A stretch of 64,000 bases of DNA, taken from contig NZ_QPHL01000013.1 in NCBI RefSeq assembly GCF_003335675.1, forward strand, positions 62,001-126,000. The letters are read 5' to 3'. Shown piece after piece: positions 5,473 through 61,360 of the stretch (the first letter of the stretch is position 1; every line of letters begins with the position of its first letter). Position numbers and translations under genes: made by a program. Below the pieces are notes generated by a model. It was not told the origin of the DNA, ran no database searches, and was given only the letters and a program-made list of their open reading frames with translations. The stretch comes from Winogradskyella sp. KYW1333 (GTDB taxonomy: Bacteria; Bacteroidota; Bacteroidia; Flavobacteriales; Flavobacteriaceae).

Positions 5473-5898
5473 ATGGATTTTCAGTTTAGCATAATTCCAA
5501 AAAATGAGATCGAATCAGTTGTGCCTTTGATTTATGATTTGAATGAAGCAAAAATATCAACGGAAATTTTACGAGAAAGATTTAATGAAATGATTGAACA
5601 GAATTATGAATGCGCTGGTATTTATTTAGGAAATAACTTAATAGGTGTTTCCGGTCTTTGGTATTGTACAAGGCATTACGCGGGTAAATCTGTAGAGATT
5701 GACCATGTATTTATAAACCCCGAATATAGAGGATCTGGTTTAGGAAAAAAGTTTATGTATTGGATCAATAATTATGCAATGAACAAAGGTTATAAGACTA
5801 TGGAACTAAATACATATGTGCAAAATTATCCTTCGCATAAGTTTTACTATAATGAAGGTTTTGAGATATTAGGATATCATTTTTTGAGAAATTTGTAG
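5473..5898 (+). CDS. GNAT family N-acetyltransferase
   Basis: This 141-residue single-domain protein has the acetyl-CoA-binding motif A as RGSGLGKK at about residues 95-102, preceded by the strand IDHVFINPEY. A C-terminal segment ends in FYYNEGFEILGYHF, typical of motif B. It transfers an acetyl group from acetyl-CoA to an unknown small molecule or protein amine. It has its own promoter and converges on pepE with only 2 bases between the stop codons. The substrate cannot be predicted. Confidence 0.88.
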   Translation: MDFQFSIIPKNEIESVVPLIYDLNEAKISTEILRERFNEMIEQNYECAGIYLGNNLIGVSGLWYCTRHYAGKSVEIDHVFINPEYRGSGLGKKFMYWINNYAMNKGYKTMELNTYVQNYPSHKFYYNEGFEILGYHFLRNL

Positions 5899-5900
5899 AA

Positions 5901-6608
5901 TTATTTTAAAAAGTCTAAATCGCTATTGGTCGCAATTTCATAGGGCTTTTTATGTTGTTCAAATATTATTGCATCTAGATTACCTCGAAGGATAATATAA
6001 TTATTTTTTATTTCTAGCCAACTTCCTTCACGTAAACCAATTACTGGTTGCGTATTGAATGCATGAAACTCTTTTATTCGGGTTTCACGGGTTTCGCCCA
6101 TATGCTTACTACTTAAATCTGGATCCAAGTAATGCGGATTTATATTAAAGGGGACTATGCCTAAAGTTTTGAAACTTGGAGGGTAAAGAATTGGCATATC
6201 ATTAGTAGTATTTATGGTTAAACCACAAATATTGCTGCCAGCACTGGTACCTAAATAAGGTGTGCCATCTTCAATAGCACTTTGTAGACTTACCAAGACA
6301 TTATTACTATATAATTGATTTACTAATACAAATGTATTGCCACCACCTGTGAAAATTCCTTTAGCATTTCTAATTGCATTTTGTGGGTCATTAAATTCGT
6401 GAATGCCCTTTACTTTTTTACCGATTTTTTTGAAGGCAGCATTTGCAATGTTGGTATATTCGTCAAAACTGACGCCACCTGGCCTAGCATATGGAATAAA
6501 TAGAATTTCGTTGCAGTCTGTGAACAATAATTCTAATTCATCAAAAAGGTATTCTAAATAACCGCTACCATGCACAGTAGAAGTACTTGCTATTATTAAA
6601 TCCCTCAA
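5901..6608 (-). CDS. pepE: Dipeptidase E (peptidase family S51)
   Basis: This cytosolic serine peptidase family cleaves Asp-X dipeptides. The 235-residue length matches E. coli PepE (229). The nucleophile is expected at Ser122 in GTSAGSN and the base at His159 in NINPHYLD. A GGGNTF loop at 88-93 lies at the substrate pocket. The start is TTG (6606-6608). It is chosen because MRDLIIAS aligns with the usual first strand of the family and no ATG occurs nearby upstream. The upstream region shows an imperfect box TATCTTAG at 6622-6629. Confidence 0.9.
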   Translation of the reverse strand: MRDLIIASTSTVHGSGYLEYLFDELELLFTDCNEILFIPYARPGGVSFDEYTNIANAAFKKIGKKVKGIHEFNDPQNAIRNAKGIFTGGGNTFVLVNQLYSNNVLVSLQSAIEDGTPYLGTSAGSNICGLTINTTNDMPILYPPSFKTLGIVPFNINPHYLDPDLSSKHMGETRETRIKEFHAFNTQPVIGLREGSWLEIKNNYIILRGNLDAIIFEQHKKPYEIATNSDLDFLK

Positions 6609-6745
6609 TTCTTTTTTTTTACTAAGATAATTAATCTATAATAAAGCTGAAAAAGAAGCTAAATCACATTTAACAAAGAATTACCAACATTTTTTTATGA
6701 GAATTAAAGATTATGTTCGTAATTTAAATTTCTTAATGCTATAAA

Positions 6746-7561
6746 ATGAAGAAAATAATAGTTACGCTTTTTTGTACATTTTCAATAATTGCATTTTCAC
6801 AAGATATTGATCGTATAACTATTAATGGTAGAATTATAGTATCCGCTCAAGATAAGGAGGGTGTGACGGTTTATAATACGTCTTCCAATAAGGGTACTGT
6901 TACAGATGAAATAGGTGAATTTAAAATCGACGTTGCTATTAACGATGTTGTGGAATTTGGAGCACTTCAGTTCAAAGATTTTACGGTTGTTATTTCAGAA
7001 CAAATTTTAGAATCTAAACAAATGACTGTGATTTTGGTAGAGGAGGTGAATAAACTTGACGAAGTTGTGTTATTACCTTTCGGCCTAACCGGAAATTTAA
7101 ATGCTGATTTAGAAAATGTTAGAACCTATAATGTTAGTCTAGATGCTGTATATTTTGGTTTAGACCATATTGAGGATTTTCAGTTTTCAGCAGATTATAA
7201 AACAAAGGCTGAAAATGTTGCGTTTAATGAATACAATCCAAAAGTAGATAATATGCTAAACTTGGTAAATCTTGCAGGATTTTTAGTAAGCCAAGTGGCA
7301 GATATTGATGGTGAAGAAATGACTAATCAAGACAAAGCACTTAACAAAACACCTTTTAAAAACGCTTTAGAGCAATACAGTGTTAATTTTATTCATGTAA
7401 ATTTTGATATTCCTCTTGATGAAATGAATGCTTTTGTTGACTATGTTGAAAATAAAGGTGTTGATGAATCCTTATTAGCAAAAAACAAGGAAGTTCAATT
7501 TTTAGAACGCATAAATCAGCTCAGTCAGTCTTATCTAAAATTTAAAGGTGATAAGAATTAA
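6746..7561 (+). CDS. Secreted protein with carboxypeptidase-like regulatory domain (first of pair)
   Basis: This 271-residue protein has a signal peptide (about 1-19, ending AFSQ). A beta-sandwich domain of the CarboxypepD_reg-like type follows (about 23-100, with TVTDEIGEFKI), and then the NKLDEVV motif (102-108) that normally leads into a TonB-receptor plug. Here no plug or barrel follows. Instead there is LTGNLNADL (114-122) and a 150-residue tail of unknown fold. The next gene is a paralogue with the same layout and overlaps it by 14 bases, so the two are likely translated as a coupled pair. Cell-surface or periplasmic location is inferred. Confidence 0.75.
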   Translation: MKKIIVTLFCTFSIIAFSQDIDRITINGRIIVSAQDKEGVTVYNTSSNKGTVTDEIGEFKIDVAINDVVEFGALQFKDFTVVISEQILESKQMTVILVEEVNKLDEVVLLPFGLTGNLNADLENVRTYNVSLDAVYFGLDHIEDFQFSADYKTKAENVAFNEYNPKVDNMLNLVNLAGFLVSQVADIDGEEMTNQDKALNKTPFKNALEQYSVNFIHVNFDIPLDEMNAFVDYVENKGVDESLLAKNKEVQFLERINQLSQSYLKFKGDKN

Positions 7562-8345
7562 ATTCGGTTTTACATTTTATTTTATTTTATATAGTCTTAT
7601 TGTTTTTGGACAACGCAAAGACTTAAAGGGCAAGCTCATTGCAAATGGCGATGTGGAAGGTATTCATATATTGAATAAAACTGCTCCAAAATATACTGTA
7701 TCAGAAGAGGACGGATCTTTTACTATACCAGCAAAGGTTTATGATACTTTATTTATATCTGGGTTAAAATATGAATCAAAAGAATTTGTAATAACAGACA
7801 CAATTATAATTTCTGGCATATTAAGAATTGCACTAATTGAAAAAATCAATGAGTTAGATGAAGTCATAGTAGGTAAAATATTGACTGGTAGCTTAGAATC
7901 GGACCTTCAAAACTCTGATGCAAAAACAGAAGTGAATTTCTATGATCTTGGAATTCCTGGTTACATAGGTAAACCACTTACAATTAATGAGCGCAAATTG
8001 CATGATGCAGATGCAGGTCCTTGGGGATATGTTGGTTTGGGATTTGGAGTTAATTTTCATAAGCTGTTAAATAAAATAAGTGGTAGGACTAAAAAATTGA
8101 AAAAAATAGTTGATTTAGACGCAAGAGATAATTGTATTGAAAGGCTTAAAAGAGAGTATGAATCAATCATTTTTGAGAATAAATTTTTTGCGGAAAACAT
8201 AAAGACTGAATTTTTTCTTTTTTGTCAGGAGGATGAGGGGTTTTTAGATTTGTGCAATAGGAACAATGATATTGAAGCTATTGAATTCTTAAAATTGAAG
8301 TTAAAAGCCTATAATAACATAAGAAAGTCTTCATCTAATGATTAA
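7548..8345 (+). CDS. Secreted protein with carboxypeptidase-like regulatory domain (second of pair)
   Basis: The 265-residue protein has a hydrophobic signal (about 5-21, ending VFGQ), a CarboxypepD_reg-like domain (about 25-98, with VSEEDGSFTIPA), then NELDEVI (101-107) and LTGSLESDL (112-120). These parallel the motifs of the upstream protein. The C-terminal half is basic and has two Cys in the last 60 residues. The start is GTG at 7548, overlapping the upstream gene by 14 bases. It is the start that preserves the signal peptide. The function is unknown. The motif order suggests a receptor-N-domain-like partner that has lost, or never had, a barrel. Confidence 0.75.
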   Translation: MIRIKFGFTFYFILYSLIVFGQRKDLKGKLIANGDVEGIHILNKTAPKYTVSEEDGSFTIPAKVYDTLFISGLKYESKEFVITDTIIISGILRIALIEKINELDEVIVGKILTGSLESDLQNSDAKTEVNFYDLGIPGYIGKPLTINERKLHDADAGPWGYVGLGFGVNFHKLLNKISGRTKKLKKIVDLDARDNCIERLKREYESIIFENKFFAENIKTEFFLFCQEDEGFLDLCNRNNDIEAIEFLKLKLKAYNNIRKSSSND

Positions 8346-8388
8346 TTTTGGAATAATTTTTTGATTAAGTCATACTAAGCCTTTAACA

Positions 8389-8895
8389 ATGAGCAAAATC
8401 AAATCTCTATTTTTATTACTTGTAGTTCCCCTTTTTCTGTCGAGTGGTTACCTTCATGAGTATTATGTTAGTGTCACCAACATTGAATTTGTTAAAGAGG
8501 AAAAATCAGTTCAAATAATAACTCAAATATTTATTGATGATTTTGAGACCTTGATAAGGGAAAGATTTGATGGTAGGGTAACCTTGGGTGTTGAAAATGA
8601 ATCAGTATTAGTCGAAGAATACATGCAACGTTACTTATCTGACAAATTGAGGGTAACATTAAATGGAATGCCAGTAGAATTCAATTTTATAGGTAAAGAA
8701 TATAAAGACGATATTGCTTATTGTTATCTAGAGATTGTAAATATTTCAGAAGTAAAAAGTATTGAGGTGAAGAATAGGGTTTTGTTTGATGTTTTTACAG
8801 ATCAACAAAATATTGTTCGACTCAAAATTAATGATAAAAACAAGAGTTTTTTATTGATTCCAGACAACGATAATTGCTTGTTAAACTTTAATTAA
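8389..8895 (+). CDS. DUF6702 family secreted protein
   Basis: The 168-residue protein starts with a signal peptide (about 1-21) followed by HEYYVSVTNIEF. The conserved segment IITQIFIDDFETLIRERF (44-61) is characteristic of the flavobacterial DUF6702 family. The mature protein looks like an all-beta periplasmic or surface domain. No catalytic motif is visible. It lies 43 bases after the paired secreted proteins and 66 bases before an M1 metallopeptidase. DUF6702 followed by an M1 peptidase is an arrangement I recall from other Flavobacteriaceae, so the two may work together on the envelope. Confidence 0.75.
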   Translation: MSKIKSLFLLLVVPLFLSSGYLHEYYVSVTNIEFVKEEKSVQIITQIFIDDFETLIRERFDGRVTLGVENESVLVEEYMQRYLSDKLRVTLNGMPVEFNFIGKEYKDDIAYCYLEIVNISEVKSIEVKNRVLFDVFTDQQNIVRLKINDKNKSFLLIPDNDNCLLNFN

Positions 8896-8961
8896 AACAC
8901 TATTAAAGCTAAGTTTATTTAGCTATTTTCGTCATCATTTTTACAAACGACACTAATTTAC

Positions 8962-11256
8962 ATGAAAATTTTAAAGTATTACCTATGCGCTACAATGTTT
9001 ATTTCTGCTAGTGCATTAGCACAAAACGAAATTAAACCAGAACGCAAACCAGGCCACACCAACGAAAATAAATTCAAACAATTATATGATGAATTTTCAA
9101 CACCCAATATGTTTAGAACTGGGAGTGGAGCGCCTGGCCCAGCGTATTACCAGCAACAGGCTGACTATAAAATGGATATTGAAATAGATGATGACAATGC
9201 CAGATTATATGGTGATGAAACTATTACTTATACAAATAATTCGCCAGATGAATTAACGTATCTATGGGTCCAATTAGACCAGAACATGCGTGCTAGAGAT
9301 TCAAAAACACCATTAATTAATAGTACAGGAATTGGTCCTGCAACCTCTTCGTCTCGAGCTGTTAGATCTTATTTAAAAGAGCGTTTCGATGGAGGTTTTA
9401 ATATAGAGCATGTTAAAGATATTAACGGAAACGATTTGCCGTTTATGATTAACCGCACCATGATGCGAGTAGAATTACCTAAATCAATGCAAACTGGAGA
9501 CAAATTTTCATTTCAAATAAAGTGGTGGTACAACATTAATGATCATGTTAGAGATGGTGGCCGTTCAGGTTATGAGTATTTCCCAGAAAATGACAATCGT
9601 ATTTATGTCATATCACAATTCTACCCGAGAATGGCTGTATACAATGATGTTGAAGGATGGCAAAATTCTCAATTCTGGGGAAGAGATGAGTTTGCATTAC
9701 CATTTGGAAATTTTGATGTAAACATTACTGTTCCAGCAGACCATATTTTAGATGGTACAGGTTATTTAACCAATAGAGAGGAAGTATTCACTAAAGAAAT
9801 GATGAAGCGTTACAAGAAGGCGCAAAAATCTTACGATGAGCCTGTTGTTATTGTAACGGAAGACGAAGCAATAGTTACTGAAAAAACTAAGAGTAAGGAT
9901 AAAAAAACTTGGAAGTTGTCAGCACAAATGGTACGTGATTTCGGGTTTGCAACATCGCGTAAATTTCTTTGGGATATGATGGCAGTGAAGTTAGAGACTA
10001 AGGATGTTATGGCTGTGTCTCTTTATTCTAAAGAAGGAAATCCACTTTGGGGGGAATGGTCTACAAAGACAGTAGCGAGTACACTAAAGAGTTATTCACG
10101 TATGACCTTTGATTATCCATACCATAAAGCCATTTCTGCACATGCTCCAATGGGTATGGAGTACCCAATGATAAGTTACAACTTTGGCCGTCCAAATCCA
10201 GATGGAACATATTCAGATCGCACCAAGTTCGGTATGATGAGTGTAATAATCCACGAAGTAGGGCACAACTGGTTCCCTATGATTATTAACAGTGATGAAC
10301 GTCAATGGACATGGATGGATGAAGGTCTTGATACGTTCGTACAGTACATTGCAGAACAAGATTTTGGTGAGTGGTATCCAGACGCACTTTCACCTGGTCA
10401 AACAAAATATCCTTCTAGACGTGGGCCTGCAAAGAATATTGTAAGATATATGGGTGGAGATCAAGATTATATTGCTCCTATAATGACTAAGGGACTTAAT
10501 ACTTATCAGTTTGGTAGTAATGCATATTCTAAACCTGCGACTGGATTGAATATTTTGCGCGAAACAGTGATGGGAAGAGAGCTTTTTGACTATGCATTTA
10601 AAGAATACGCAAATCGTTGGAAATTTAAACACCCGACACCTGAAGATTTCTTCCGTACAATGGAAGATGCGTCAGCGGTAGACTTAGATTGGTTCTGGAG
10701 AGGATGGTTTTATACAACCGACTACACTGATATCGGAATTAAAGAAGTGAAGAGGTACGCCGTAACAAATACACCAAATGAAGAAGGCAAACAACTTGCT
10801 GAACGTTATAGAATGGATCCAAATAGTCTTGTTTATTTCATTGAAGAAGGAAAGGAGGGTTATGAAACAGCTAATAATAGTGCTGGAATCAGTGATTTAC
10901 CAACAGTAAAAGAATATTTGATGGATAACTTCACGCCTGAACAAAGAAATGAAATGAAAACACCACCAAAGTATTTTTATGAAGTAACATTTGATAAACC
11001 AGGAGGATTAGTAATGCCTCTTATAGTTGAGTATACCTATGCAGATGACTCTAAGGAAAAAGTGACATATCCAGCCCAGATATGGAGATTAAATGATAAA
11101 GAAGCCCGTAGGGCAATAGCAAGTGATAAAGAAATTGTTGCTATTACTGTAGATCCAGATTTAGAAACTGCAGATGTAGATACATCAAATAATTCATGGC
11201 CTAGAGAAGTACAACAGAGTGATTTTGATAAATTTAAAAATCAAATTAAAAACTAA
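8962..11256 (+). CDS. M1 family metallopeptidase, secreted
   Basis: The 764-residue protein has a cleavable signal peptide (ending ALAQ near residue 21), the N-terminal M1 saddle domain, and the gluzincin zinc site HEVGH (His431, Glu432, His435) with the third ligand Glu454 at the expected 18-residue spacing. The usual substrate-amino-group motif GxMEN is replaced by GMEYP (398-402), so classical aminopeptidase specificity is uncertain. The enzyme is probably periplasmic or on the cell surface. An intrinsic terminator follows, so this is the last gene of the block starting at 6746. Confidence 0.92.
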   Translation: MKILKYYLCATMFISASALAQNEIKPERKPGHTNENKFKQLYDEFSTPNMFRTGSGAPGPAYYQQQADYKMDIEIDDDNARLYGDETITYTNNSPDELTYLWVQLDQNMRARDSKTPLINSTGIGPATSSSRAVRSYLKERFDGGFNIEHVKDINGNDLPFMINRTMMRVELPKSMQTGDKFSFQIKWWYNINDHVRDGGRSGYEYFPENDNRIYVISQFYPRMAVYNDVEGWQNSQFWGRDEFALPFGNFDVNITVPADHILDGTGYLTNREEVFTKEMMKRYKKAQKSYDEPVVIVTEDEAIVTEKTKSKDKKTWKLSAQMVRDFGFATSRKFLWDMMAVKLETKDVMAVSLYSKEGNPLWGEWSTKTVASTLKSYSRMTFDYPYHKAISAHAPMGMEYPMISYNFGRPNPDGTYSDRTKFGMMSVIIHEVGHNWFPMIINSDERQWTWMDEGLDTFVQYIAEQDFGEWYPDALSPGQTKYPSRRGPAKNIVRYMGGDQDYIAPIMTKGLNTYQFGSNAYSKPATGLNILRETVMGRELFDYAFKEYANRWKFKHPTPEDFFRTMEDASAVDLDWFWRGWFYTTDYTDIGIKEVKRYAVTNTPNEEGKQLAERYRMDPNSLVYFIEEGKEGYETANNSAGISDLPTVKEYLMDNFTPEQRNEMKTPPKYFYEVTFDKPGGLVMPLIVEYTYADDSKEKVTYPAQIWRLNDKEARRAIASDKEIVAITVDPDLETADVDTSNNSWPREVQQSDFDKFKNQIKN

Positions 11257-13350: not shown

Positions 13351-13879
13351 TTACTTCCACTTTCTTTGGAGGTTGCATAATCTCATCACAATTTGGGCAA
13401 GAGCGTTTATCCTTATCACCGTAGTAATTATCAAAGATACTAGGCATGTCTGTTTCTATATTGTCTAGTGTAAAGTCTTCTTCATACAGTTTTGTTGTAC
13501 AGTTTTCACAAAACCAAAGCAAGGCATCTTTTACACCTTTTTCTCTCGGATATTCAATAACTAGACCCACTGTATTTGCGCCTCGTTGTGGTGAATGTGG
13601 TACTTTTGGTGGAAGTAAGAATATTTCACCTTCTCTAATGTGAATATCCTTAGGAGTGCCTTTGTCAATTACCTTGAGGACAATATCGCCTTCAACTTGA
13701 TAAAAGAATTCTGGGGTTTCATTATAATGATAATCTTTTCTACTATTTGGTCCTCCTACGACCATTACAATAAAATCACCATCTTTCCAGACTACTTTAT
13801 TACCTACAGGTGGTTTTAACAGATGTCTATTTTCTTCAATCCATGCTTTAAAATTAATGGGTGGATATAATTTGCTCAT
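13343..13879 (-). CDS. 3-hydroxyanthranilate 3,4-dioxygenase
   Basis: This cupin-fold non-haem iron enzyme opens the ring of 3-hydroxyanthranilate to give ACMS. The 178-residue protein has iron ligands His51, Glu57 and His95 (HYNETPE and PHSPQR) and the bacterial rubredoxin-like second iron site formed by Cys124, Cys127, Cys161 and Cys164 in two CxxC pairs. It overlaps the ACMSD gene by 8 bases, which suits hand-over of an unstable product. It corresponds to NbaC/HAAO. Confidence 0.96.
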   Translation of the reverse strand: MSKLYPPINFKAWIEENRHLLKPPVGNKVVWKDGDFIVMVVGGPNSRKDYHYNETPEFFYQVEGDIVLKVIDKGTPKDIHIREGEIFLLPPKVPHSPQRGANTVGLVIEYPREKGVKDALLWFCENCTTKLYEEDFTLDNIETDMPSIFDNYYGDKDKRSCPNCDEIMQPPKKVEVND

Positions 13880-13912
13880 ATCTTAATGATTTAATTAGGT
13901 AATTCTATAAAG

Positions 13913-14695
13913 TTACAAACTTTTTGTTCGTCCACCATCAACAGGAAGGTTAATTCCATTAATATAACTTGCTCTTTTACTTACCAAAAAAGTAATGGCA
14001 TCTGCAAGTTCTTCAGGCTTGGCAAATCGTTTAGCAGGAATTGTATTTTTCATAGCATTAGCCGATTCTTCTATTGACTTGCCTGTTTTACCTGATTTGT
14101 TTTTAATAATTTCAGAAAGGCGCTCTGTACTTGTAGCACCAGGTAATACATTATTGACAGTAATACCAAAAGAACCTAATTCGTTAGCCAAAGTTTTACT
14201 CCAATTTGCTACAGCACCTCTAATTGTGTTGCTAACTCCCAAACCGTCTAAAGGTTGTTTAACGGAGGTTGAAATAACATTTATAATCCTTCCGAAACCT
14301 TCATCCTTCATAAACGGAACTAATGTTTGTGCTAACACATGGTTGCATTTTAAATGTTGCGTAAAAGCTTTCTCAAATTCTTCTAAATTTGCACTATAAA
14401 CCGGGCCTCCTGCAGGTCCGCCAGTATTATTGATTAAGATATGGAATCCATGATTTTCAATAATAAAAGCTTTAACCTTTTCTTTTAACTCAATTGGATT
14501 TGAAAAATCTGCAACAATGTAATTGTGTTTGCGTTGCTGAGGTAATTCAGAAAGAGTAGTTTTTAATTTTTCTTCATTTCTTGCTATAAGGGTAATTATT
14601 GCACCTTCATTTGCAAGTGCAATAGCAGTAGCTTTTCCAATTCCGGCTGTGCTTCCACAAACAAGAACATGTTTATTGTTGAGTTCTAAATTCAT
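13913..14695 (-). CDS. Atypical short-chain dehydrogenase/reductase family protein
   Basis: The 260-residue Rossmann protein has the nucleotide-binding loop CGSTAGIG (13-20) instead of TGxxxGIG, and NNTGGPAGG (89-97) where NNAG is usual. The active-site YxxxK is replaced by SNTIR: Ser155 and Arg159 fall where Tyr and Lys should be, 13 residues after Ser142. This matches the BKR-like SDR subgroup known to lack a perfect catalytic tetrad. A hairpin at 14702-14720 lies just upstream of the ATG. It sits inside the kynurenine operon, so a role in the later steps is likely, but its reaction is unknown. Confidence 0.85.
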   Translation of the reverse strand: MNLELNNKHVLVCGSTAGIGKATAIALANEGAIITLIARNEEKLKTTLSELPQQRKHNYIVADFSNPIELKEKVKAFIIENHGFHILINNTGGPAGGPVYSANLEEFEKAFTQHLKCNHVLAQTLVPFMKDEGFGRIINVISTSVKQPLDGLGVSNTIRGAVANWSKTLANELGSFGITVNNVLPGATSTERLSEIIKNKSGKTGKSIEESANAMKNTIPAKRFAKPEELADAITFLVSKRASYINGINLPVDGGRTKSL

Positions 14696-14776
14696 ATTTA
14701 TAATCCACTAAACGTGGGTTTGTTTTTAAGTTAGTATTCTATAAAATTATAATTCCCTAATTAAGCAGGTACTTTA

Positions 14777-16219
14777 CTAATATTTTATACAAACATTTTT
14801 AGGTTCAGTAAAAAAGCGCAACGCTTCAAAACCACCTTCTCTGCCAACACCTGAGGCTTTAACGCCACCAAAAGGTGTTCGTAGATCGCGCATCATCCAT
14901 GTATTTACCCAAACTATTCCCGCTTGTAATTTGTCGCTCATGTGCATTGTCCTTTTTAGGTTATTTGTCCAAAGTGTGGCTGATAAACCATATTTCACTT
15001 TATTGGCCATCTTTAAAACGTCATCTTCAGTTTTAAAAGGCATAATCGTAACAACTGGACCAAAAATTTCTTCTTGATTAACTCTACATTCATCATCGGG
15101 AACTTCTATTACGGTTGGTTTTAAGTAGTAACCATTCTCATATCCTTCAACACTAACCTCTTCACCACCACAAAGGATTATCCCATTTTCATCTCTGGCA
15201 ATTTGTATATATTCTTTTACTTTTTCTAAATGTGGTTTGGAAACCAAAGCACCAATATTAGTTTTAGTGTCAGACGGATGACCAACTTTTAGATTTTTGA
15301 CCTTCTTCACAAAATCTGACTTAAACTGCTCGTAGATGGTGGCTTCAACAAAAATCCTACTGCCACATAAGCAAATTTGACCTTGGTTGGCAAAAGAAGA
15401 TCTTACTGTAGTTTCTAACATTTCTTCATAATTACAATCTGCAAAAATTATATTTGGGTTTTTACCTCCAAGTTCTAAGGATAGTTTTTTAAACATAGGT
15501 GCTGCGACTTTGGCAATATGAGCACCAGTCGCAGTACCACCAGTAAATGAAATAGCTTTAATATCAGGATGTTCAACAATGGCTTGACCAGTTGTTGTCC
15601 CTAATCCATGAACAATATTTAAAACGCCTTTTGGTAAACCTGCTTCATTGCAGATTTCACCTAATAGATTGGCGGTCATTGGAGTTACTTCACTAGGTTT
15701 AGCAACAACACAATTTCCTGTTGCCATCGCAGGTGCAATTTTCCAAGTAAATAGATAGAGTGGGAGATTCCATGGTGAGATACACCCAACAACTCCTATA
15801 GGTTGACGCAAGGTATAGTTAACAGCATTTTGACCTACACTTTCGTGACTTTCACTCGAGAATTGCGTAATAGCATTACCGAAAAATCTAAAATTACTTG
15901 CTGCTCTTGGAATGTCTACTGTTTTAGCTAAAGAAATGGGTTTGCCATTATCCATACTTTCAGCTTTAGCAAACCGATTCAAGTTTTCCTCTAATAATTC
16001 TGAAATCTTAATTAGAACACGACTTCTTTCCTCTAGAGTTGTATTGCTCCAATTATTAAATGCAGATTTAGCAGCTTGATATGCATTTTCTACATCTTCT
16101 TTTGATGAATTTGGTATTTGCCCATAAACTTCACCATTTGAAGGGTCATAGTTTTCAATCCATTCATCCTTAATGGGACTTTCAAATTTACCGTTAATGT
16201 AGTTTTTGATATTGTTCAT
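14777..16219 (-). CDS. Aldehyde dehydrogenase, probable 2-aminomuconate semialdehyde dehydrogenase
   Basis: This NAD-dependent enzyme would oxidise 2-aminomuconate semialdehyde to 2-aminomuconate. The 480-residue protein is a complete ALDH with the ELGGKNP glutamate motif and the catalytic Cys283 in GQICLCGSR. The CLC context is shared with hydroxymuconic and aminomuconic semialdehyde dehydrogenases (NbaE/DmpC/ALDH8A1). The substrate assignment rests on this similarity and on placement with ACMSD and the RidA-type deaminase. Confidence 0.92.
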   Translation of the reverse strand: MNNIKNYINGKFESPIKDEWIENYDPSNGEVYGQIPNSSKEDVENAYQAAKSAFNNWSNTTLEERSRVLIKISELLEENLNRFAKAESMDNGKPISLAKTVDIPRAASNFRFFGNAITQFSSESHESVGQNAVNYTLRQPIGVVGCISPWNLPLYLFTWKIAPAMATGNCVVAKPSEVTPMTANLLGEICNEAGLPKGVLNIVHGLGTTTGQAIVEHPDIKAISFTGGTATGAHIAKVAAPMFKKLSLELGGKNPNIIFADCNYEEMLETTVRSSFANQGQICLCGSRIFVEATIYEQFKSDFVKKVKNLKVGHPSDTKTNIGALVSKPHLEKVKEYIQIARDENGIILCGGEEVSVEGYENGYYLKPTVIEVPDDECRVNQEEIFGPVVTIMPFKTEDDVLKMANKVKYGLSATLWTNNLKRTMHMSDKLQAGIVWVNTWMMRDLRTPFGGVKASGVGREGGFEALRFFTEPKNVCIKY

Positions 16220-54053: not shown

Positions 54054-55304
54054 ATGTTAGTCTATCTTAGGGTTTTTAAAGAGAGTTTTTCTTTTGCTTT
54101 AAATGCACTTAGAAATAATAAACTACGCACATTTTTATCGTTGCTTGGAGTAACGGTTGGGATTTTCTCTATTATTGCTGTTTTGGCTGCAGTGGATTCA
54201 CTTGACAAAAACATAAAGGAAAACCTTTCTGGATTAGATAAGAACACAATTTATTTATCAAAATATTCATTTGGTCCAACTGATGTTCCCAGGTGGAAGC
54301 GTGATAACTTTCCGCAAACGGAATACGATGATTATGAGTTTGTAAGGCGAAATATACCTGATATTGAAGAGTCTGCGTATGTAATTTTTGGAGGTAGTGA
54401 AACTATTAGATATCAGGCTGAAACACTCACCAATATAAACATAACTCCAATTTCACATGGCATATATACTATTGATGATTTGAAGGTTGTTCAAGGAAGG
54501 TTTTATTCTGAATTAGAGTCTGATACAGGTGCACCTGTTATAGTGATTGGTTCTAATTTGGCTGAAAATTTGTTTGATAAGGCCAACCCAATAGGTAAGG
54601 TAGTGAGGGTATATGGTAGAAAGTTGACTGTAATTGGTATTTTAAAAAAATATGGAGCAAATTTTGGGGATTCACCAGACGATAAAGGTTTTGTACCAGC
54701 CAATTTTGTAAGACAATTTAGAAATGGTGGTGTAGACGGTTTACCTGGAGCTGTGGTTATAAAACCAAAAAAAGATGTTGATATTGGTGCATTTGAAAGC
54801 GTTTTGAAGCAGAAATTCAGAAATTATCGAGGATTGAAAGCTGATGAAGAAGATGATTTTTTTGTTAATAAACTTTCGGGATTAGTTTCTTTTATAGACG
54901 CAATAATTGCTGGTTTGAATACAGTAGGTTGGGTTATTAGCGGATTCTCATTGTTAGTTGGTGGCTTTGGTATTGCCAATATTATGTTTGTGAGTGTTAA
55001 AGAACGCACCAATTTAATTGGTATTCAAAAATCGCTTGGCGCTAAAAACAGATTCATATTGTTACAGTTTCTATTCGAAGCAACAATTCTTGCTGTAGTT
55101 GGTGGTTTAGTAGGTTTATTCCTAGTGTGGATAATATCGCTCATAATGAATGGATTTGTAGAAGACTTTAAGTTTGTGCTCTCATTTGCAAACATGTTTC
55201 TAGGTTTTGGATTATCTACCTTAATTGGTCTTATATCTGGTGTAATACCGGCTTTTTCAGCATCAAAATTAGATCCTGTGGAAGCCATTAGAACAGGTAT
55301 GTAA
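54054..55304 (+). CDS. MacB/FtsX-type ABC transporter permease (first of tandem pair)
   Basis: The 416-residue inner-membrane protein has the MacB-like periplasmic core domain (about 25-250) after the first helix, and an FtsX domain with three helices at the C-terminus (about 290-410, with GFGIANIMFVSVKERT and PVEAIRTGM). The residues LRTFLSLLGVTVGIFSIIAV begin the first helix. No ATPase gene is adjacent. The partner ATPase must be encoded elsewhere. The next gene is a close paralogue. Confidence 0.93.
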   Translation: MLVYLRVFKESFSFALNALRNNKLRTFLSLLGVTVGIFSIIAVLAAVDSLDKNIKENLSGLDKNTIYLSKYSFGPTDVPRWKRDNFPQTEYDDYEFVRRNIPDIEESAYVIFGGSETIRYQAETLTNINITPISHGIYTIDDLKVVQGRFYSELESDTGAPVIVIGSNLAENLFDKANPIGKVVRVYGRKLTVIGILKKYGANFGDSPDDKGFVPANFVRQFRNGGVDGLPGAVVIKPKKDVDIGAFESVLKQKFRNYRGLKADEEDDFFVNKLSGLVSFIDAIIAGLNTVGWVISGFSLLVGGFGIANIMFVSVKERTNLIGIQKSLGAKNRFILLQFLFEATILAVVGGLVGLFLVWIISLIMNGFVEDFKFVLSFANMFLGFGLSTLIGLISGVIPAFSASKLDPVEAIRTGM

Positions 55305-55383: not shown

Positions 55384-56637
55384 ATGCTCGTATATCTACG
55401 TTTATTTAAAGAAAGCTTTTCATTTGCATTTAATGCGCTACGCAACAATAAATTAAGGACATTCCTTTCCTTACTGGGCGTTACAATTGGCATATTTTCT
55501 ATTATTGCTGTATTGGCAGCAGTAGATTCATTAGATAAAAATATTAGAGAATCTCTTAGTGCATTAGATAGTAATACCATGTACTTGGCCAGTTTTTCAT
55601 TTGGCCCAACTGACGTGCCAAGATGGAAAAGGGAGACATTTGATGAGATTTCTTATAATGAGTATAAGTATCTAAAGGCAAATCTTAATGGTGCAGAGCA
55701 TGTTGCTTTTCAATTATTTGTTAGGCGTGAAAACATAAGGTATGAATCTGAACAGGTAAGCAGTATTAATACTGTGGTGGTTTCTAATGAATTCACAGAT
55801 ATCCAAGTTTTGGAATTTGAAAAAGGTAGGTTTTACACTGAATCTGAATCTAATGCTGGTAGGCCAGTTGTGGTTATAGGCTCGGAAATTGCTAAATCCT
55901 TGTTTGGTGATTTTGAACCCATAGGAAAGAAAGTACGGCTGTATGGACAAAAATTTACAGTTATAGGAGTTGTCAAAAAAGAAGGTTCAGGACTTTTTGG
56001 TGATAGTAATGACGAGTCAATATTTCTTCCTGCCAATTATGTAAGAAAACGGTTTGGTGATAACAATAAAAATTTCAGAAATATTATAATCATCAAACCA
56101 GAAAAAGATTCAGATATAGCAGGTTTAAAAGCAGAAGTAGTGCAGTTAATACGAAATCGTAGAGGCTTAAAACCAGATGAAATAGATACGTTTTTTATTA
56201 GTGTTATATCCGGACTACAAGATGCCATTGATGGCATTATTGGCACAATGAATTTAATTGGTTGGATTATTAGTGGGTTCTCCTTGCTGGTTGGTGGTTT
56301 CGGTATTGCCAATATTATGTTTGTTAGTGTAAAAGAGAGAACCAATTTAATAGGTATACAAAAGTCTTTAGGTGCTAAGAATAAGTTTATATTGTTTCAG
56401 TTTTTATTTGAAGCAATAATACTAGCAATTGTTGGTGGTGTAGTTGGTTTGTTTATGGTTTGGATCGGCACGATAATAGGAAACAATCTCTCTGAAGATT
56501 TTGAATTTGTTTTGTCCTTTAGAAATATGCTATTAGGTATTTTAATATCGTCCTTTATAGGTTTGATTTCTGGTTTAATACCAGCGTTATCGGCTTCTAG
56601 ATTAGATCCCGTTGAAGCAATTAGAACAGGAATGTAA
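55384..56637 (+). CDS. MacB/FtsX-type ABC transporter permease (second of tandem pair)
   Basis: The 417-residue protein is clearly a duplicate of the preceding one. The same N-terminal SFGPTDVPRWKR and LGVTIGIFSIIAVLAAVD blocks and the same C-terminal GFGIANIMFVSVKERTN and DPVEAIRTGM blocks recur, while the periplasmic domain (about 80-250) has diverged. The two might form a heterodimer or serve different substrates. A 79-base gap with an imperfect box TATCTTTA separates them. The convergent GAF gene abuts its stop codon. Confidence 0.93.
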   Translation: MLVYLRLFKESFSFAFNALRNNKLRTFLSLLGVTIGIFSIIAVLAAVDSLDKNIRESLSALDSNTMYLASFSFGPTDVPRWKRETFDEISYNEYKYLKANLNGAEHVAFQLFVRRENIRYESEQVSSINTVVVSNEFTDIQVLEFEKGRFYTESESNAGRPVVVIGSEIAKSLFGDFEPIGKKVRLYGQKFTVIGVVKKEGSGLFGDSNDESIFLPANYVRKRFGDNNKNFRNIIIIKPEKDSDIAGLKAEVVQLIRNRRGLKPDEIDTFFISVISGLQDAIDGIIGTMNLIGWIISGFSLLVGGFGIANIMFVSVKERTNLIGIQKSLGAKNKFILFQFLFEAIILAIVGGVVGLFMVWIGTIIGNNLSEDFEFVLSFRNMLLGILISSFIGLISGLIPALSASRLDPVEAIRTGM

Positions 56638-57185: not shown

Positions 57186-57740
57186 TTGTTGAGATCAATT
57201 TTAATTAAATATAAACTTGTAATACGTTTTATGCTAACCTTTGTATTAGTTTATACAGTTCTTACAATTGGGTATAAAATATATCTCAGTAATTCTGACG
57301 GTTTATTGTATTATCCTGACTATGCGACACATATAGTGGCAAATCAAACCGAAAACTTACTAGATGTGATTGGTTATGATACTGAAGTCTTTCCTCATGA
57401 AACTGAGCCTTCAATGAAAGTTGTAATTAACGGAAAGTTTGTGGCACGAATTATTGAAGGTTGCAATGCCATAAGTATAATAGTTTTGTTTTTATCTTTT
57501 GTAATCGCGTTTGCTGATAATTTTAAAACAACATTTTTGTATTGTTTAGCTGGGAGTATAATTATATATGCTTTTAACCTCATAAGAATTGTTATCTTGT
57601 CTGCCTGTTTATACCATTATCCTTGGCGAAGAGAAATTTTACACTCTGTTATTTTTCCAATTGTTATTTATGGAACAGTATTTATTCTATGGATGATTTG
57701 GGTTAATAAATTTGCAAAAAAGAAAAAAGTCAATACCTAG
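57186..57740 (+). CDS. xrtF: Exosortase family protein XrtF
   Basis: XrtF is a multi-pass membrane transpeptidase-like sorting enzyme of Bacteroidota. The 184-residue protein shows the exosortase catalytic triad: Cys93 in IIEGCNAI, Arg134 in FNLIRIV and His153 in ILHSVIF, with six or so helices. Known targets carry a C-terminal sorting tail, but none is recognised nearby. The start is TTG at 57186 or the adjacent TTG at 57189. Both keep the MLRSILIKYK-type N-terminus and no ATG precedes it. Confidence 0.9.
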   Translation: MLRSILIKYKLVIRFMLTFVLVYTVLTIGYKIYLSNSDGLLYYPDYATHIVANQTENLLDVIGYDTEVFPHETEPSMKVVINGKFVARIIEGCNAISIIVLFLSFVIAFADNFKTTFLYCLAGSIIIYAFNLIRIVILSACLYHYPWRREILHSVIFPIVIYGTVFILWMIWVNKFAKKKKVNT

Positions 57741-58161
57741 AGTTGTGAAATATATCATCTTGTTTGTTCTTTTTTTGATACTCGTTTTAATACGTGCTTT
57801 TGAGGATGTTTTATTTTATGATCCATACCTTTCCTTTTTTGAAAATGATTATTTGTATATGGATAGTCCACGTCGTGAAGTGGCTAAACTGGTATTTTTT
57901 ACGAGTTTGAGATATTTGTTAAATACTTTGGTTTCATTAGCAATACTATTTGTAATCTTTAAGTACAAGGGCATTTTAAAGTTTAGTACACTTATTTATA
58001 CACTAGCATACATAGCCTTAATGACATCATTTTTATATTTTGTAATTAATCCTAAGCAAGAAAATTATTATTTATTTTTTAATATAAGACGATTTTTAAT
58101 TCAGCCATTGTTGTTAATACTTCTGTTGCCAGCGTTTTATTATTATAAATTGAATCGTTAA
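57712..58161 (+). CDS. Exosortase F system-associated protein
   Basis: The 149-residue membrane protein has four hydrophobic helices (about 14-27, 66-82, 92-111 and 128-143) and the family segment RAFEDVLFYDPYLSFF. It overlaps xrtF by 29 bases, with a TTG start at 57712, the only start that keeps the first helix and its basic N-terminus. It always accompanies XrtF in flavobacteria and is thought to assist it. Its mechanism is unknown. Confidence 0.87.
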   Translation: MQKRKKSIPRVVKYIILFVLFLILVLIRAFEDVLFYDPYLSFFENDYLYMDSPRREVAKLVFFTSLRYLLNTLVSLAILFVIFKYKGILKFSTLIYTLAYIALMTSFLYFVINPKQENYYLFFNIRRFLIQPLLLILLLPAFYYYKLNR

Positions 58162-58200: not shown

Positions 58201-58208
58201 TAGGTTTG
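58201..58208 (+). promoter_or_regulatory. -7 box immediately before the HYC_CC_PP GTG start
   Basis: TAGGTTTG is a perfect TAnnTTTG box and the GTG at 58213 follows 4 bases later. The stretch TTTGCAATGTGA is identical to that before the tatA-like gene at 11321, so this too predicts a leaderless or near-leaderless mRNA. Confidence 0.55.
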
Positions 58209-58212
58209 CAAT

Positions 58213-58620
58213 GTGAAAGCAACTGTTTTACATAAGTCCTTTTCTTTATTCCTAGCATTTTTAGTGCTCTTTTCAACATTTTCATTCACTGTTGAGAAAC
58301 ACTATTGTGGTAATCATTTAGTTGACACTGCAATTTTTAGCCAGGCAAAAAAATGTGGTGGTATAGGTGCTGAAGATATTAGTTATGTTAAAAAACCCTG
58401 TTGCAAGGATATCGTAGTTATAATTGAAGGTCAGGATGAATTGACCGTTAAAGACTTTCAATCTATTGAAAAAGATACATATACTACTTTAGTGTCTTAT
58501 GTCCTTAGTTATATGTTTCTGTTTGAGACGGTAGCAAAACCAATAATACCGCACAAGTATTACAAACCTCCCAAAATCATCAAAGACATACATGTTTTAG
58601 ATGAAACTTATCTCATTTGA
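58213..58620 (+). CDS. HYC_CC_PP family secreted protein
   Basis: The 135-residue protein matches the named flavobacterial family by its invariant groups: His30-Tyr31-Cys32, the Cys63-Cys64 pair (KKPCCKD) and the Pro119-Pro120 pair (YYKPP). A signal sequence covers about 1-26. Another Cys is at 48. The function is unknown, but the Cys and His content suggests metal binding. It heads the block with a TonB receptor and an HMA-domain protein. The start is GTG, placed by the signal peptide and by the promoter box at 58201. Confidence 0.85.
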   Translation: MKATVLHKSFSLFLAFLVLFSTFSFTVEKHYCGNHLVDTAIFSQAKKCGGIGAEDISYVKKPCCKDIVVIIEGQDELTVKDFQSIEKDTYTTLVSYVLSYMFLFETVAKPIIPHKYYKPPKIIKDIHVLDETYLI

Positions 58621-58688
58621 TTAAGAAGTAACAACTCAAAAATTAAGAGAGCACTGAATAGTGCATACGTTATTTTTATAATTAAATC

Positions 58689-60926
58689 ATGAAAAAATAT
58701 TTATACATTTTATTTATAAGCATTGGGTTTATAGGTTATTCCCAAGAACAATTAAAAGGGGTTGTTTTAGAAAACAGTAGTTCTAAAGAAGTGCCATTAC
58801 AAGGAGCTAATGTATTCTGGCTCAACTCAACAGTAGGTGCAGTTACGGCTGAAGATGGAACATTTTCATTGCCATATAAGTTTTCCTATAACAAACTTGT
58901 AATAAGTTATGTTGGCTTTAAAACTGATACCGTAATTGTCAGTGAGAACAGATATATAAAGCACGTGTTACAATCATCGGATGAATTAGATGCAGTAACC
59001 GTGACATCACGAAAACAGGCCACTACAAAGTCCTTCTTAAAAGCTACTAACACGTTCACGGTTAGTAGTGAGGAATTATTAAAAGCGGCGTGCTGTAATC
59101 TCTCAGAAAGTTTTGAAACCAACCCATCAATTGATGTCAATTTTGCCGATGCGGTTACGGGCACTAAGCAGATAAAAATGTTAGGGCTCAATTCCCCTTA
59201 TATATTAATTGCAACAGAAAATATCCCAGCAATTCGTGGAGCTTCTCAAGCATATGGATTAAGTTTTATACCAGGAACTTGGGTTGAGAGTATACAGATT
59301 ACCAAAGGTGCAGGAAGTGTGGTGAACGGTTTTGAAAGTATTGCAGGCCAAATTAATGCAGAACTTGTAAAACCAATTACTGACAACAAGTTGTTTGTAA
59401 ATACGTATGCAGGGATTAATGGACGACTAGAATTAAATACCCACATTAATAAAAAAGTATCCGATAGATGGAGTGGTGGATTATATATCCATGGTAATCT
59501 CCGAAATCAAAAGTTTGATAGAAATGATGATTCTTTTTTAGATGTCCCTTTAAAAGAGCAAATTAATATCATGAATAGGTGGCAATACACGAATCCAGTA
59601 AAAGGTGTAGTCAGTTTTATAAATCTTAGATATATTAACGATAACACTCAGTCTGGACAAATTGATTTTGATCCAGGTCGTGACATGGGTACTACAAATT
59701 TTTGGGGAAGCGAGATAGATACAGAACGATTTGAGGTAACTACCAAACTTGGTTATGTTAATCCTGAAATCCCATATCAGAGTTTAGGCTTTCAAACAGC
59801 ATTTAGTCAACATAATCAAGAATCTTATTTTGGGTTAAATGTATACGATATAAAGCATACAAGTTTTTATTCAAATTTGGTATATAACAGTATTATCACA
59901 GATTCAAGGCATAAAATTAAAACGGGACTAACTTTCACCTACGATAATTATGATGAGTTGGTCAATATTGATAATTATGAACGTACAGAGAACTCGTTTG
60001 GAGGCTTCTTTGAATATTCTTATGATGATTTAGATAAGTTGACATTAACTGCTGGTATTAGAGCAGACCAACATAATAGATTTGGATTTTTTATAACACC
60101 AAGATTACATGTTAGGTATACACCTTGGGAAAAATCCGTATTTAGGACTTCAATTGGTAGAGGTATAAAAAGTGCCAATATTTTTGCTGAGACTCAAAAT
60201 ATGTTCTCGAGTTCTAGGCAAATTAATATTCTTGGAATAGGAGGGAAGATTTACGGTTTAGATCCGGAGATTGCATGGAATTATGGTTTTAGCTATTTAC
60301 AAGGATTTAATCTTTTTGAGAGAAAAGCAGATGTTACACTAGATTTTTATAGAACAGATTTTGAAAATCAGGTTATAACTGATTGGGAAAATCCATCTGA
60401 AATAAATTTTTACAATCTAGAAGGTGAAAGTTTTGCAAATAGTTTTCAGTTAGAGTTTAATTATAATGCCTTCGAAAATTTTGATTTCCGAATGGCTTAT
60501 AAGTTTTATGATATTCAAACAGATTATTTAAGTGGTAGGTTAGATAATCCGCTGATCCCCAAACATCGTCTGTTTGCAAATGCATCTTACAAAACGGAGT
60601 TGACCACAAATGGATCGCAATGGAAATTCGATGCAACGTATAACTGGTTGAGCAAACAGCGTTTCCCCAATACTGATGCAAGCGCACCTGAATTTCAATT
60701 AGATGAATATTCACCTACAATTGGAACTTTAAATCTACAAATGACTAAGGTGTTTTCGCCAAGTTTTGAAATTTATATTGGAGGAGAAAATGTAACAAAT
60801 GTGAGACAGTCCAACCCAATTATTAGCCCAGATAACCCATTTGGTTCAAATTTTGATAGTAACTTTGTGTATGGTCCTATTTTTGGAAGCATGTATTATG
60901 CAGGACTTAGATTTAAAATGAATTAA
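58689..60926 (+). CDS. TonB-dependent receptor, probable metal or metal-chelate type
   Basis: The 745-residue outer-membrane protein has a signal peptide (about 1-18, ending GYSQ), a CarboxypepD_reg-like domain (about 22-97), the plug (about 110-225) and a beta-barrel to the C-terminus. The plug begins with an unusual vicinal cysteine pair, Cys135-Cys136, in KAACCNLSESFE. It contains IKMLGLNSPYILIATENIPAIRG in the usual plug loops. No SusD partner is present. Neighbouring Cys-rich and HMA proteins suggest copper or another soft metal as ligand, which is inference. Confidence 0.93.
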   Translation: MKKYLYILFISIGFIGYSQEQLKGVVLENSSSKEVPLQGANVFWLNSTVGAVTAEDGTFSLPYKFSYNKLVISYVGFKTDTVIVSENRYIKHVLQSSDELDAVTVTSRKQATTKSFLKATNTFTVSSEELLKAACCNLSESFETNPSIDVNFADAVTGTKQIKMLGLNSPYILIATENIPAIRGASQAYGLSFIPGTWVESIQITKGAGSVVNGFESIAGQINAELVKPITDNKLFVNTYAGINGRLELNTHINKKVSDRWSGGLYIHGNLRNQKFDRNDDSFLDVPLKEQINIMNRWQYTNPVKGVVSFINLRYINDNTQSGQIDFDPGRDMGTTNFWGSEIDTERFEVTTKLGYVNPEIPYQSLGFQTAFSQHNQESYFGLNVYDIKHTSFYSNLVYNSIITDSRHKIKTGLTFTYDNYDELVNIDNYERTENSFGGFFEYSYDDLDKLTLTAGIRADQHNRFGFFITPRLHVRYTPWEKSVFRTSIGRGIKSANIFAETQNMFSSSRQINILGIGGKIYGLDPEIAWNYGFSYLQGFNLFERKADVTLDFYRTDFENQVITDWENPSEINFYNLEGESFANSFQLEFNYNAFENFDFRMAYKFYDIQTDYLSGRLDNPLIPKHRLFANASYKTELTTNGSQWKFDATYNWLSKQRFPNTDASAPEFQLDEYSPTIGTLNLQMTKVFSPSFEIYIGGENVTNVRQSNPIISPDNPFGSNFDSNFVYGPIFGSMYYAGLRFKMN

Positions 60927-60947
60927 GAAAATTTAAAAAATAAAAAC

Positions 60948-61325
60948 ATGAAAAATATAATAACTCTATTAGCCCTTTGTTTTGGGATGATTGCTTTTTC
61001 TCAAAATAAAAATACAAAGGTGAGTATGGAAGTAGATGGTGTTTGCATGATGTGTAAAGAACGAATCGAAAAAGCTGCAATTAGAACAAAAGGAGTTAAA
61101 TCTGCTGTTTGGAGTGTAGATACACACGAGCTTAAACTTATTTATGATGAGGGTAAAACGAATCTTAAAACAATTGCACAAAAATTAGCTGACGTAGGAC
61201 ACGATACCAAAGAAATTAAAGCAACAGAAGAAGCTTATAATTCTGTGCACCCTTGTTGTAAGTATCGAGACAAAGATGCAGTGAAAGACCATGAGGGAAA
61301 ACTTAAAAAATCTTCAGGAAAATAA
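60948..61325 (+). CDS. Periplasmic heavy-metal-associated (HMA) domain protein
   Basis: This 125-residue protein has a signal peptide (about 1-19, ending AFSQ) and an HMA/CopZ-like ferredoxin fold (about 24-93) with the metal site Cys33-x-x-Cys36 in GVCMMC. A C-terminal extension carries Cys103-Cys104 in HPCCKYRDKD and a charged tail. It would shuttle a soft metal ion in the periplasm. It follows the TonB receptor by 21 bases and is closed by a strong terminator. Confidence 0.9.
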   Translation: MKNIITLLALCFGMIAFSQNKNTKVSMEVDGVCMMCKERIEKAAIRTKGVKSAVWSVDTHELKLIYDEGKTNLKTIAQKLADVGHDTKEIKATEEAYNSVHPCCKYRDKDAVKDHEGKLKKSSGK

Positions 61326-61330
61326 AACAA

Positions 61331-61360
61331 AAAAAGCCTCAACAATTGTTGAGGCTTTTT
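61331..61360. terminator. Bidirectional terminator between HMA and groEL genes
   Basis: A perfect 30-base palindrome whose stem is AAAAAGCCTCAAC/GTTGAGGCTTTTT works on both strands and ends both the metal block and the groESL operon. Confidence 0.88.

Follow-up and report, generated by a model that had tools for sequence, protein, structure and literature searches.

The HYC_CC_PP – TonB receptor – HMA locus

The sequence analysed in the current study (the window) is a stretch of 64,000 nucleotides (nt) from Winogradskyella sp. KYW1333 (contig NZ_QPHL01000013.1, positions 62,001 – 126,000). Towards its end, three adjacent genes on the plus strand encode a small HYC_CC_PP protein (HYC in what follows), a TonB-dependent receptor with a vicinal Cys-Cys pair (CC), and an exported-type HMA protein. 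A promoter-like box precedes the three genes, an RNA stem lies between the first two, and a terminator-like hairpin follows the last. The features, in window coordinates, are as follows (aa, amino acids; PP, Pro-Pro pair).

58201 – 58208, plus strand: -7 box TAGGTTTG, of the TAnnTTTG type, 4 nt 5' of the HYC GTG start
58213 – 58620, plus strand: HYC_CC_PP gene, GTG start, 135 aa, NCBIfam NF047658 with 110.7 bits (cut-off 28); residues H30, C32, C48, C63-C64 (CC), P119-P120 (PP), C-terminal I135
58618 – 58684, plus strand: RNA stem; 5' arm 58618 – 58632, starting at the HYC stop codon UGA; 3' arm 58669 – 58684, ending 4 nt short of the receptor ATG; small inner hairpins between the arms
58689 – 60926, plus strand: TonB-dependent receptor, CC type, 745 aa, with CarboxypepD_reg, Plug and TonB barrel
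58986 – 59009, plus strand: Ton-box-like segment LDAVTVTS, receptor residues 100 – 107, seen in sequence and alignment; putative Ton box
59091 – 59096, plus strand: receptor vicinal Cys135-Cys136, about 30 residues C-terminal to the Ton-box-like segment, at the start of the plug
60948 – 61325, plus strand: HMA protein, exported type, 125 aa; CMMC (C33, C36), H85 and a tail CC (C103-C104)
61331 – 61360, no strand: terminator-like hairpin, bidirectional, between HMA and groEL

The receptor passes the Pfam cut-offs for PF07715 (Plug, 32.8 bits) and PF00593 (barrel, 82.8 bits), which makes it a TonB-dependent transporter, and the HMA protein matches PF00403 (HMA) with 33.7 bits (cut-off 24.8). The gap between HYC and the receptor is 68 nt. 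An earlier inspection of the same DNA, made from the letters and their open reading frames (ORFs) only (the sequence-only reading), had proposed that the genes end in a terminator; the hairpin found there is a 13-bp stem with T runs on both sides, shared by HMA and the convergent downstream neighbour, groEL.

Conservation of the unit

Neighbourhoods were compared across 101 loci, that is, the window plus 100 fetched receptor places of the window's taxonomic family; as the loci were picked for the receptor, their counts inform on adjacency and not on presence. All three genes lie on one strand in 95 of them, HYC was found in 97, and HMA is the next gene 3' of the receptor in 98. At the level of genomes, HYC is present in 237/249 of the window's family and the receptor (E<=1e-60) in 165/249, with HYC accompanying it in 159 of these 165. 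The cysteines are near invariant: C32, C48, C63 and C64 of HYC are kept in 88/88 family loci, the receptor CC in 101/101, and the CxxC and tail CC of HMA each in 99/99. The three genes are a conserved unit, far from what chance would give. The sequence-only reading had described three adjacent genes on one strand with these cysteines (C48 of HYC apart), and two checks that it suggested, of gene neighbourhood and of CC conservation, came out in its favour: adjacency is not rare, and the receptor pair is retained in all orthologues.

Beyond the family, 81/296 genomes of a phylum-wide draw carry the receptor. Sixty regions were fetched, consisting of one filler, eight with a CC-type receptor of the window's family and a phylum set of 51, six of which have no CC-type receptor, leaving 45; HYC was recognised in 24/45 and a separate HMA gene in 23/45. 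Start codons were taken from a simple longest-ORF caller, by which some gaps and stem arms are misplaced, and some genomes are present twice; the first counts of HYC geometry, stem folds, C-termini and stop codons held both copies, and the main counts were repeated on distinct sequences.

Position, promoter-like box and geometry of HYC

HYC is the first gene of the unit in 94/97 family loci and in 22/24 loci of the phylum set. HMA switches between the two sides of the receptor, lying behind or in front of it, while HYC keeps first place. The gap 3' of HYC is also long (median 82 nt, n=97, versus 14 nt, n=147, for other internal gaps).

In Bacteroidota the -7 promoter element is TAnnTTTG, and the box in front of the window's HYC fits it. 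Of the HYC genes, 114/161 have a box of this type close to their start, compared with 115/1064 other genes, 2/193 receptors, 1/178 HMA genes and 1/87 MauE genes, counts in which only the HYC rows were reduced to distinct sequences. The sequence-only reading had placed a dedicated promoter here. In 83 HYC genes the box ends 4 nt 5' of the called start, and from this distance the HYC mRNA may be leaderless. A sigma-70-type promoter was rejected, since a scan found 24 where shuffles gave an expectation of 25.5.

Among 194 distinct HYC proteins, all carry CC and 179 have PP near the end; in 150 of the latter CC and PP are 53 – 55 residues apart, and in 145 exactly 15 residues follow PP, some having shorter tails. 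The last residue of family HYC proteins is Ile in 160/163 distinct genes and the stop codon is UGA in 153/163, whereas UGA ends 59/1026 other genes, 5/180 receptors and 3/164 HMA genes. The N-terminus is hydrophobic (Kyte-Doolittle over 19 residues >=1.6 in 172/176). Outside the motifs HYC evolves fast, with 23 – 66% identity to the window protein against 65 – 83% for the receptor. One large genus (L325 – L329) has a different HYC tail (such as YHQYIFYS); there the stem persists and some stop codons are not UGA.

An RNA stem between HYC and the next gene

The RNA stem at nt 58618 – 58684, which was absent from the sequence-only reading, has a predicted free energy of -13.8 kcal/mol and a z-score of -2.90. 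The region after the HYC stop codon has a mean z of -2.49 in 167 distinct regions, compared with -1.09 in controls (n=250, drawn at random from 483 gene pairs), and the stop codon is fully paired in 92/167 regions versus 36/250 controls. Its pairing partner mostly lies 6 – 16 nt 5' of the called next start.

The two arms appear to evolve together. An alignment-free test was applied to 119 non-redundant regions (from 158 distinct regions, out of 180 with gaps of 45 – 150 nt), the rows being related species with redundancy cut at 72% similarity only; here arms paired with their own partner at -8.07 kcal/mol versus -4.30 kcal/mol across species, and the own-arm value was reached by 0/2000 permutations. 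With the inner arms alone, from which the stop codon and the bases next to the start are excluded, the figures were -6.2 versus -4.4 (0/2000). Receptor-to-HMA gaps gave -4.92 versus -4.18 (68/2000), and gaps between a preceding gene and HYC gave no gain from own arms (-4.02 versus -4.27). In 13 related sequences, hand-picked for better alignment and with the structure taken from one member, 88.5% of cells pair, and the covariation score was reached by 1/500 shuffles. A known Rfam family for the stem was rejected, as the six matches obtained were all sub-threshold and near the terminator at 61331.

The stem is not confined to receptor operons. A second HYC in the window's genome heads a CusA/CzcA-type resistance-nodulation-division (RND) gene, which scores above its cut-off, and a similar stem lies between them. 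Nine CusA-type HYC loci were judged by eye: five of them (L001 of the window's genome, L024, L029, L030, L040) have a best fold that starts with the stop codon, and in L033 and L044 the fold starts no more than a few bases away. In three distant loci (L307, L322, L332), where small Cys-rich head proteins were not recognised as HYC, the 3' arm covers a Shine-Dalgarno-like sequence or the start codon.

The stem might merely couple translation of the second gene to termination of the first at a fixed ratio, with no metal sensing involved. Base pairing does connect the start region to the stop codon, and coupling needs nothing more; this explanation leaves the invariant Cys and His residues, the fixed CC-PP spacing and the C-terminal residues of HYC unaccounted for, and we consider it unlikely. 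A similar degree of doubt attaches to the metal relay in the periplasm proposed in the sequence-only reading, of which each of the three proteins would be a structural component; HYC would then be a membrane-anchored carrier, and the stem would serve only for translational coupling. Conserved Cys and His residues together with a hydrophobic N-terminus would suit a carrier, as would the presence of HYC in a metal-efflux island. Against a carrier stand the leading position of HYC, at CusA genes too, its rapid divergence outside the motifs coupled with the lack of a confident fold, its conservation, which extends through the final residue to the stop codon, and the co-evolution of the stem. A cis-acting sensor leader fits HYC better than a relay protein does, because HYC heads two kinds of operon (TonB receptor and CusA), keeps a fixed CC-PP-stop spacing and is followed by a co-evolving stem.

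The receptor and the HMA protein

All 53 receptors of the phylum-wide fetch that score above 350 bits, eight from the window's family included, have CC, and none of the 7 at 194 – 287 bits does; the 350-bit cut was chosen after the scores were seen, the next lower score being 287. Two receptors carry the pair as CCTL. In the large genus mentioned above (L325 – L329 and many same-family phylum-wide matches) receptors mostly lack the N-terminal CarboxypepD_reg, the match starting near residue 80 – 96.

Here and below, published systems are described from excerpts of the papers cited. OprC of Pseudomonas aeruginosa, like the window receptor, is a TonB receptor with Cys in the plug, a single plug Cys being important for copper in OprC (PMC8610252); its CxxxM-HxM site lies about 70 residues past the Ton box, compared with about 30 for the CC of the window receptor. 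Neither the CxxxM nor the HxM motif was found when the 745-aa receptor was read by eye. Receptors of the CrtA type, as in Bordetella pertussis, have no conserved Cys and are followed by a PepSY_TM gene in >75% of loci, in contrast to the window receptor with its CC (101/101) and adjoining HMA gene (98/101). An OprC- or CrtA-like identity of the receptor was rejected on the lack of CxxxM-HxM and, as regards CrtA, on the conserved CC.

The single HMA domain with CxxC resembles carriers of the MerP/CopZ/Atx1 type, from which the protein differs in its extra conserved tail CC and in being linked, or even fused, to a TonB receptor. In seven fetched loci (L285, L290, L291, L292, L294, L295, L343) the receptor is 845 – 920 aa long and begins with one or two HMA-like regions, which have GxCxxCK and a tail CC resembling those of the separate HMA protein. 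Two of the seven were scanned with Pfam; HMA was detected in L291 (two stretches, 42.1 bits), and L290 reached 23.9 bits, just below the cut-off of 24.8. Since receptor and HMA are fused in these loci, the two act together, and HMA lies N-terminal to the receptor plug, facing the periplasm. We regard the fusions as the strongest direct support for a putative hand-over of metal from the receptor to HMA. The operon, the fusions and the conservation of CC are features of the sequences themselves; the metal, the direction of transport and the hand-over are what we infer from them.

Lipoprotein-like neighbours of the HMA-receptor fusions in L291, L292 and L343 (gene at -2) and in L295 (gene at +1) contain repeats like NPPHGxPxHRCDIxVGxPL, which look like a repeated His/Cys metal site.

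Neighbouring genes and the metal

Genes for copper proteins recur in these neighbourhoods. A Cu-type P-type ATPase gene is part of the unit in 8/101 loci (the one scanned, L106, scored above the copper ATPase cut-off) and an HMA-MauE gene in 48/101. A Csp-like protein is encoded nearby in 5/101 loci, the one scanned falling below the Csp1 cut-off, and L129 has a multicopper oxidase below the copper_res_A cut-off. By association with these genes, copper is most likely the metal that the unit handles.

Motifs of the HMA and CC types can bind other soft metals. The substrate might thus be a soft metal other than copper, or a chelate, or CC might be a structural or redox vicinal pair. This is consistent with the best NCBIfam match of the HMA protein, MerP, although at 29.9 bits it is far below the cut-off of 92.55, and with the absence of an OprC or CrtA signature from the receptor. 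The copper families argue the other way; a minority of the loci have them next to the receptor, and the neighbourhoods were not scanned systematically for genes of other metals. A substrate other than copper appears improbable on balance.

The second HYC of the window's genome heads a metal island (L003, C7:60500 – 80499; genes at 9652 – 10095 and 5835 – 9542) with CusA and an F42 lipoprotein. The island also holds HMA-MauE, PepSY_TM and HMA genes and, as judged by eye, TolC-like, CusB-like, MerTP-like and P-type ATPase genes. In L003, too, a Cys-rich DUF6660 protein ending in WHPPQVIS (L003:15967 – 16287) is encoded directly 5' of a TonB receptor lacking CC (13731 – 15917); no stem was seen at this DUF6660 gene. 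Small Cys-rich proteins ending in WQPPKxx precede the receptors of L291, L292, L295 and L343, and proteins ending in WQPPRLA or WQPPQLA are found two genes before the receptor in L317 and L321. These DUF6660/WQPP proteins may form another family of leaders, in which PP stands some 3 residues short of the C-terminus, like that of CruR (see below).

The gene xrtF (exosortase F) and a partner gene (nt 57186 – 58161) lie directly 5' of HYC on the same strand, as they do in many of the 101 loci. Further upstream, nt 54054 – 55304 and 55384 – 56637 are tandem, closely similar genes, by eye of the ABC-permease (MacB-like) type, that apparently arose by local duplication.

Comparison with known leader ORFs

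CutF of Rhodobacter capsulatus is a Cys-motif protein that is sensed during export, and a stem hides the start of the next gene; copper prolongs the arrest and switches the genes on (PMC9973294). The cutF-cutO arrangement and that of HYC are alike in several respects: a small Cys-motif protein (exported in the case of CutF) with a C-terminal polyproline, encoded by the first gene, followed by a short intergenic region with a stem-loop at the next start and by copper genes downstream (PMC9973294). Going by the sequence evidence, a stem-loop of the CutF type, shielding the next start, is present at HYC. The two differ in that CutF is a DUF2946 protein with CxxxC, while HYC has an HYC-C-CC pattern without a DUF2946 match, and its stem takes off from the HYC stop codon itself. 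The CutF authors list CutF-like proteins in Bacteroidota, naming TonB-like and CusA/CzcA neighbours; to be listed, a protein must have its PP among the final 15 residues (PMC9973294), a limit that most HYC proteins narrowly miss, their PP mostly standing 15 residues before the end.

CruR of B. pertussis heads a copper TonB receptor operon, CruR-bfrG/crtA-PepSY_TM (PMC9426467), and copper turns this operon off (PMC9426467, PMC12914433). It shares with HYC a leader ORF, a Cys motif, a C-terminal PP and a TonB-receptor operon, and PepSY_TM occurs in the metal island of the window's genome as well; it differs in its DUF2946 domain, its CXXC and RAPP motifs, Rho dependence and a 162-nt gap (PMC9426467, PMC12914433). 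A search keyed to RAPP/RGPP found TonB-related leader ORFs across Gram-negatives, but gave Bacteroidota as one of the groups in which none of them is copper-related (PMC12992588). The upstream ORFs of secA and secDF in Bacteroidota, which end in NSP-stop or NAP-stop, have conserved residues up to the stop codon as HYC does; they are Sec-related and end in Pro, and the available text mentions no metal motif (PMC10987492).

The opposite signs of CutF and CruR bear on what the operon responds to. HYC may be a sensor leader of an operon that answers copper excess, as in CutF (PMC9973294), with receptor and HMA serving tolerance or salvage. Detoxification-type partners in some loci (Cu ATPase, Csp-like protein, multicopper oxidase) would suit this, as would the same leader at CusA in the window's genome; if copper switches both operons on, then the receptor operon would be a copper response and not a starvation response. 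TonB receptors import, however, and in the closest receptor case, the CruR-CrtA operon, copper acts as an off signal (PMC9426467, PMC12914433), so a response to excess seems a tentative option, though one to be taken seriously.

Searches of the open-licence PubMed Central (PMC) literature found no paper on HYC_CC_PP by name and no description of the present receptor-HMA unit. Copper-sensing leader ORFs as such are already known.

Proposed mechanism

Taken together, the unit is reasonably probable to be a Bacteroidota metal-handling operon, with copper the most likely metal, in which HYC is a metal-sensing leader ORF and the receptor and HMA protein form a working pair. The best reading of HYC is that it would work like CutF and CruR, as a nascent-chain metal sensor, without DUF2946 similarity. 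The joint metal module of the sequence-only reading is upheld as regards the conserved unit, the HMA-receptor fusions and the recurring copper genes; its view of HYC as a relay protein gives way to that of a leader.

According to the leader model, the nascent HYC chain would be exported through Sec and expose H30, C32, C48, C63 and C64 before its C-terminus has left the ribosome. The dwell time of the ribosome at the end of the ORF would then be altered by the binding of metal. As CC is 54 residues before PP, and about 30 residues would be taken up by the tunnel and 17 by the membrane (the count used by the CutF authors, PMC9973294), the cysteines would just reach the periplasm. The stem would close the start of the next gene until a ribosome waiting at the HYC stop codon covers the 5' arm and opens it, allowing translation of the receptor (or of MauE-HMA, or of CusA in the paralogous operon). 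Place, promoter-like box, motifs, spacing and co-evolving stem can be read from the sequences; export, arrest, metal binding and the sign of the response are the parts that this model would add.

At the outer membrane, TonB unfolds about 50 plug residues of BtuB, presumably pulling them into the periplasm (PMC5413942). Cys135-Cys136 of the receptor, about 30 residues past the putative Ton box, would fall within the corresponding part. HMA, tethered to the receptor in some species, could then take Cu(I) from CC by thiol exchange and pass it on.

A number of results weigh against this interpretation. As to the unit, 84/249 family genomes are without the receptor, and HMA is absent beside it in 2/101 loci (L075 and L119, the former from the window's genus). 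As to HYC, the -7 box is also common before genes of family F20 (17/21) and UGA is also frequent in MauE genes (23/78); as UGA takes part in the stem, the fact that it is conserved does not count as independent evidence that ribosomes arrest there. The HYC structure model is poor (64.5) and gave no PDB match at E<=0.001, for which reason a recognisable fold was rejected. Profile searches with DUF2946 (PF11162) gave no match among 38 HYC proteins at E<=5 and none in the window's genome at E<=10, and an identity of HYC with DUF2946 was rejected. With PP 15 residues before the end, a ribosome stalled exactly there would be about 48 nt from the stem and make no contact with it; an arrest that opens the stem should for this reason be at or near the stop codon, which the conserved C-terminal residues and UGA would fit.

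As to the stem, ordinary gene pairs also show a small difference between own and cross-species arms (-4.45 versus -3.83, 0/2000). Two of five measures in the 13-sequence test were not above shuffles (both-side changes, 90/500; further pair types, 132/500), and RNAalifold, run on 17 sequences aligned with MAFFT, yielded 3 compensated pairs and almost no consensus energy (-0.54 kcal/mol), which we attribute to misplacement of the arms by MAFFT. Outside the family the stem is weaker (HYC-to-HMA, mean z -0.95, n=8), and two of the nine CusA-type loci (L018, L035) have no stem at the stop codon. As to the receptor, an AlphaFold2 model leaves the plug unresolved, with most of residues 98 – 225 below a predicted local distance difference test (pLDDT) score of 50, and a plug site taken from this model was rejected on that ground. 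For Bizionia, a different receptor with the OprC motif has been proposed for copper uptake (PMC11213822); the genus also carries the present unit (L211). Lastly, receptor and efflux operons share this leader, and would have to respond with one and the same sign or else be wired differently.

Implications

A wider claim is possible, and we hold it with somewhat less than even confidence: that HYC, with its 237/249 genomes in the window's family and no profile relationship to DUF2946, makes up a family of metal-sensing arrest peptides at the level of the phylum, that one design, its stem starting from the leader's stop codon, governs TonB-receptor and CusA operons in the same cell, and that the receptor is a new type of copper TonB-dependent transporter, in which the CC in the part of the plug extracted by TonB would deliver to HMA, sometimes within the same polypeptide. 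The copper-sensing leader ORFs whose regulation has been demonstrated, CutF and CruR, are both proteobacterial DUF2946 proteins, going by the excerpts cited above. If the present interpretation is true, the task would fall to a different protein family in almost all genomes of a large bacterial family, and a widespread 'hypothetical' protein would be explained. The HMA-receptor fusions, for their part, make the exit of metal from a TonB receptor on the periplasmic side testable on one polypeptide.

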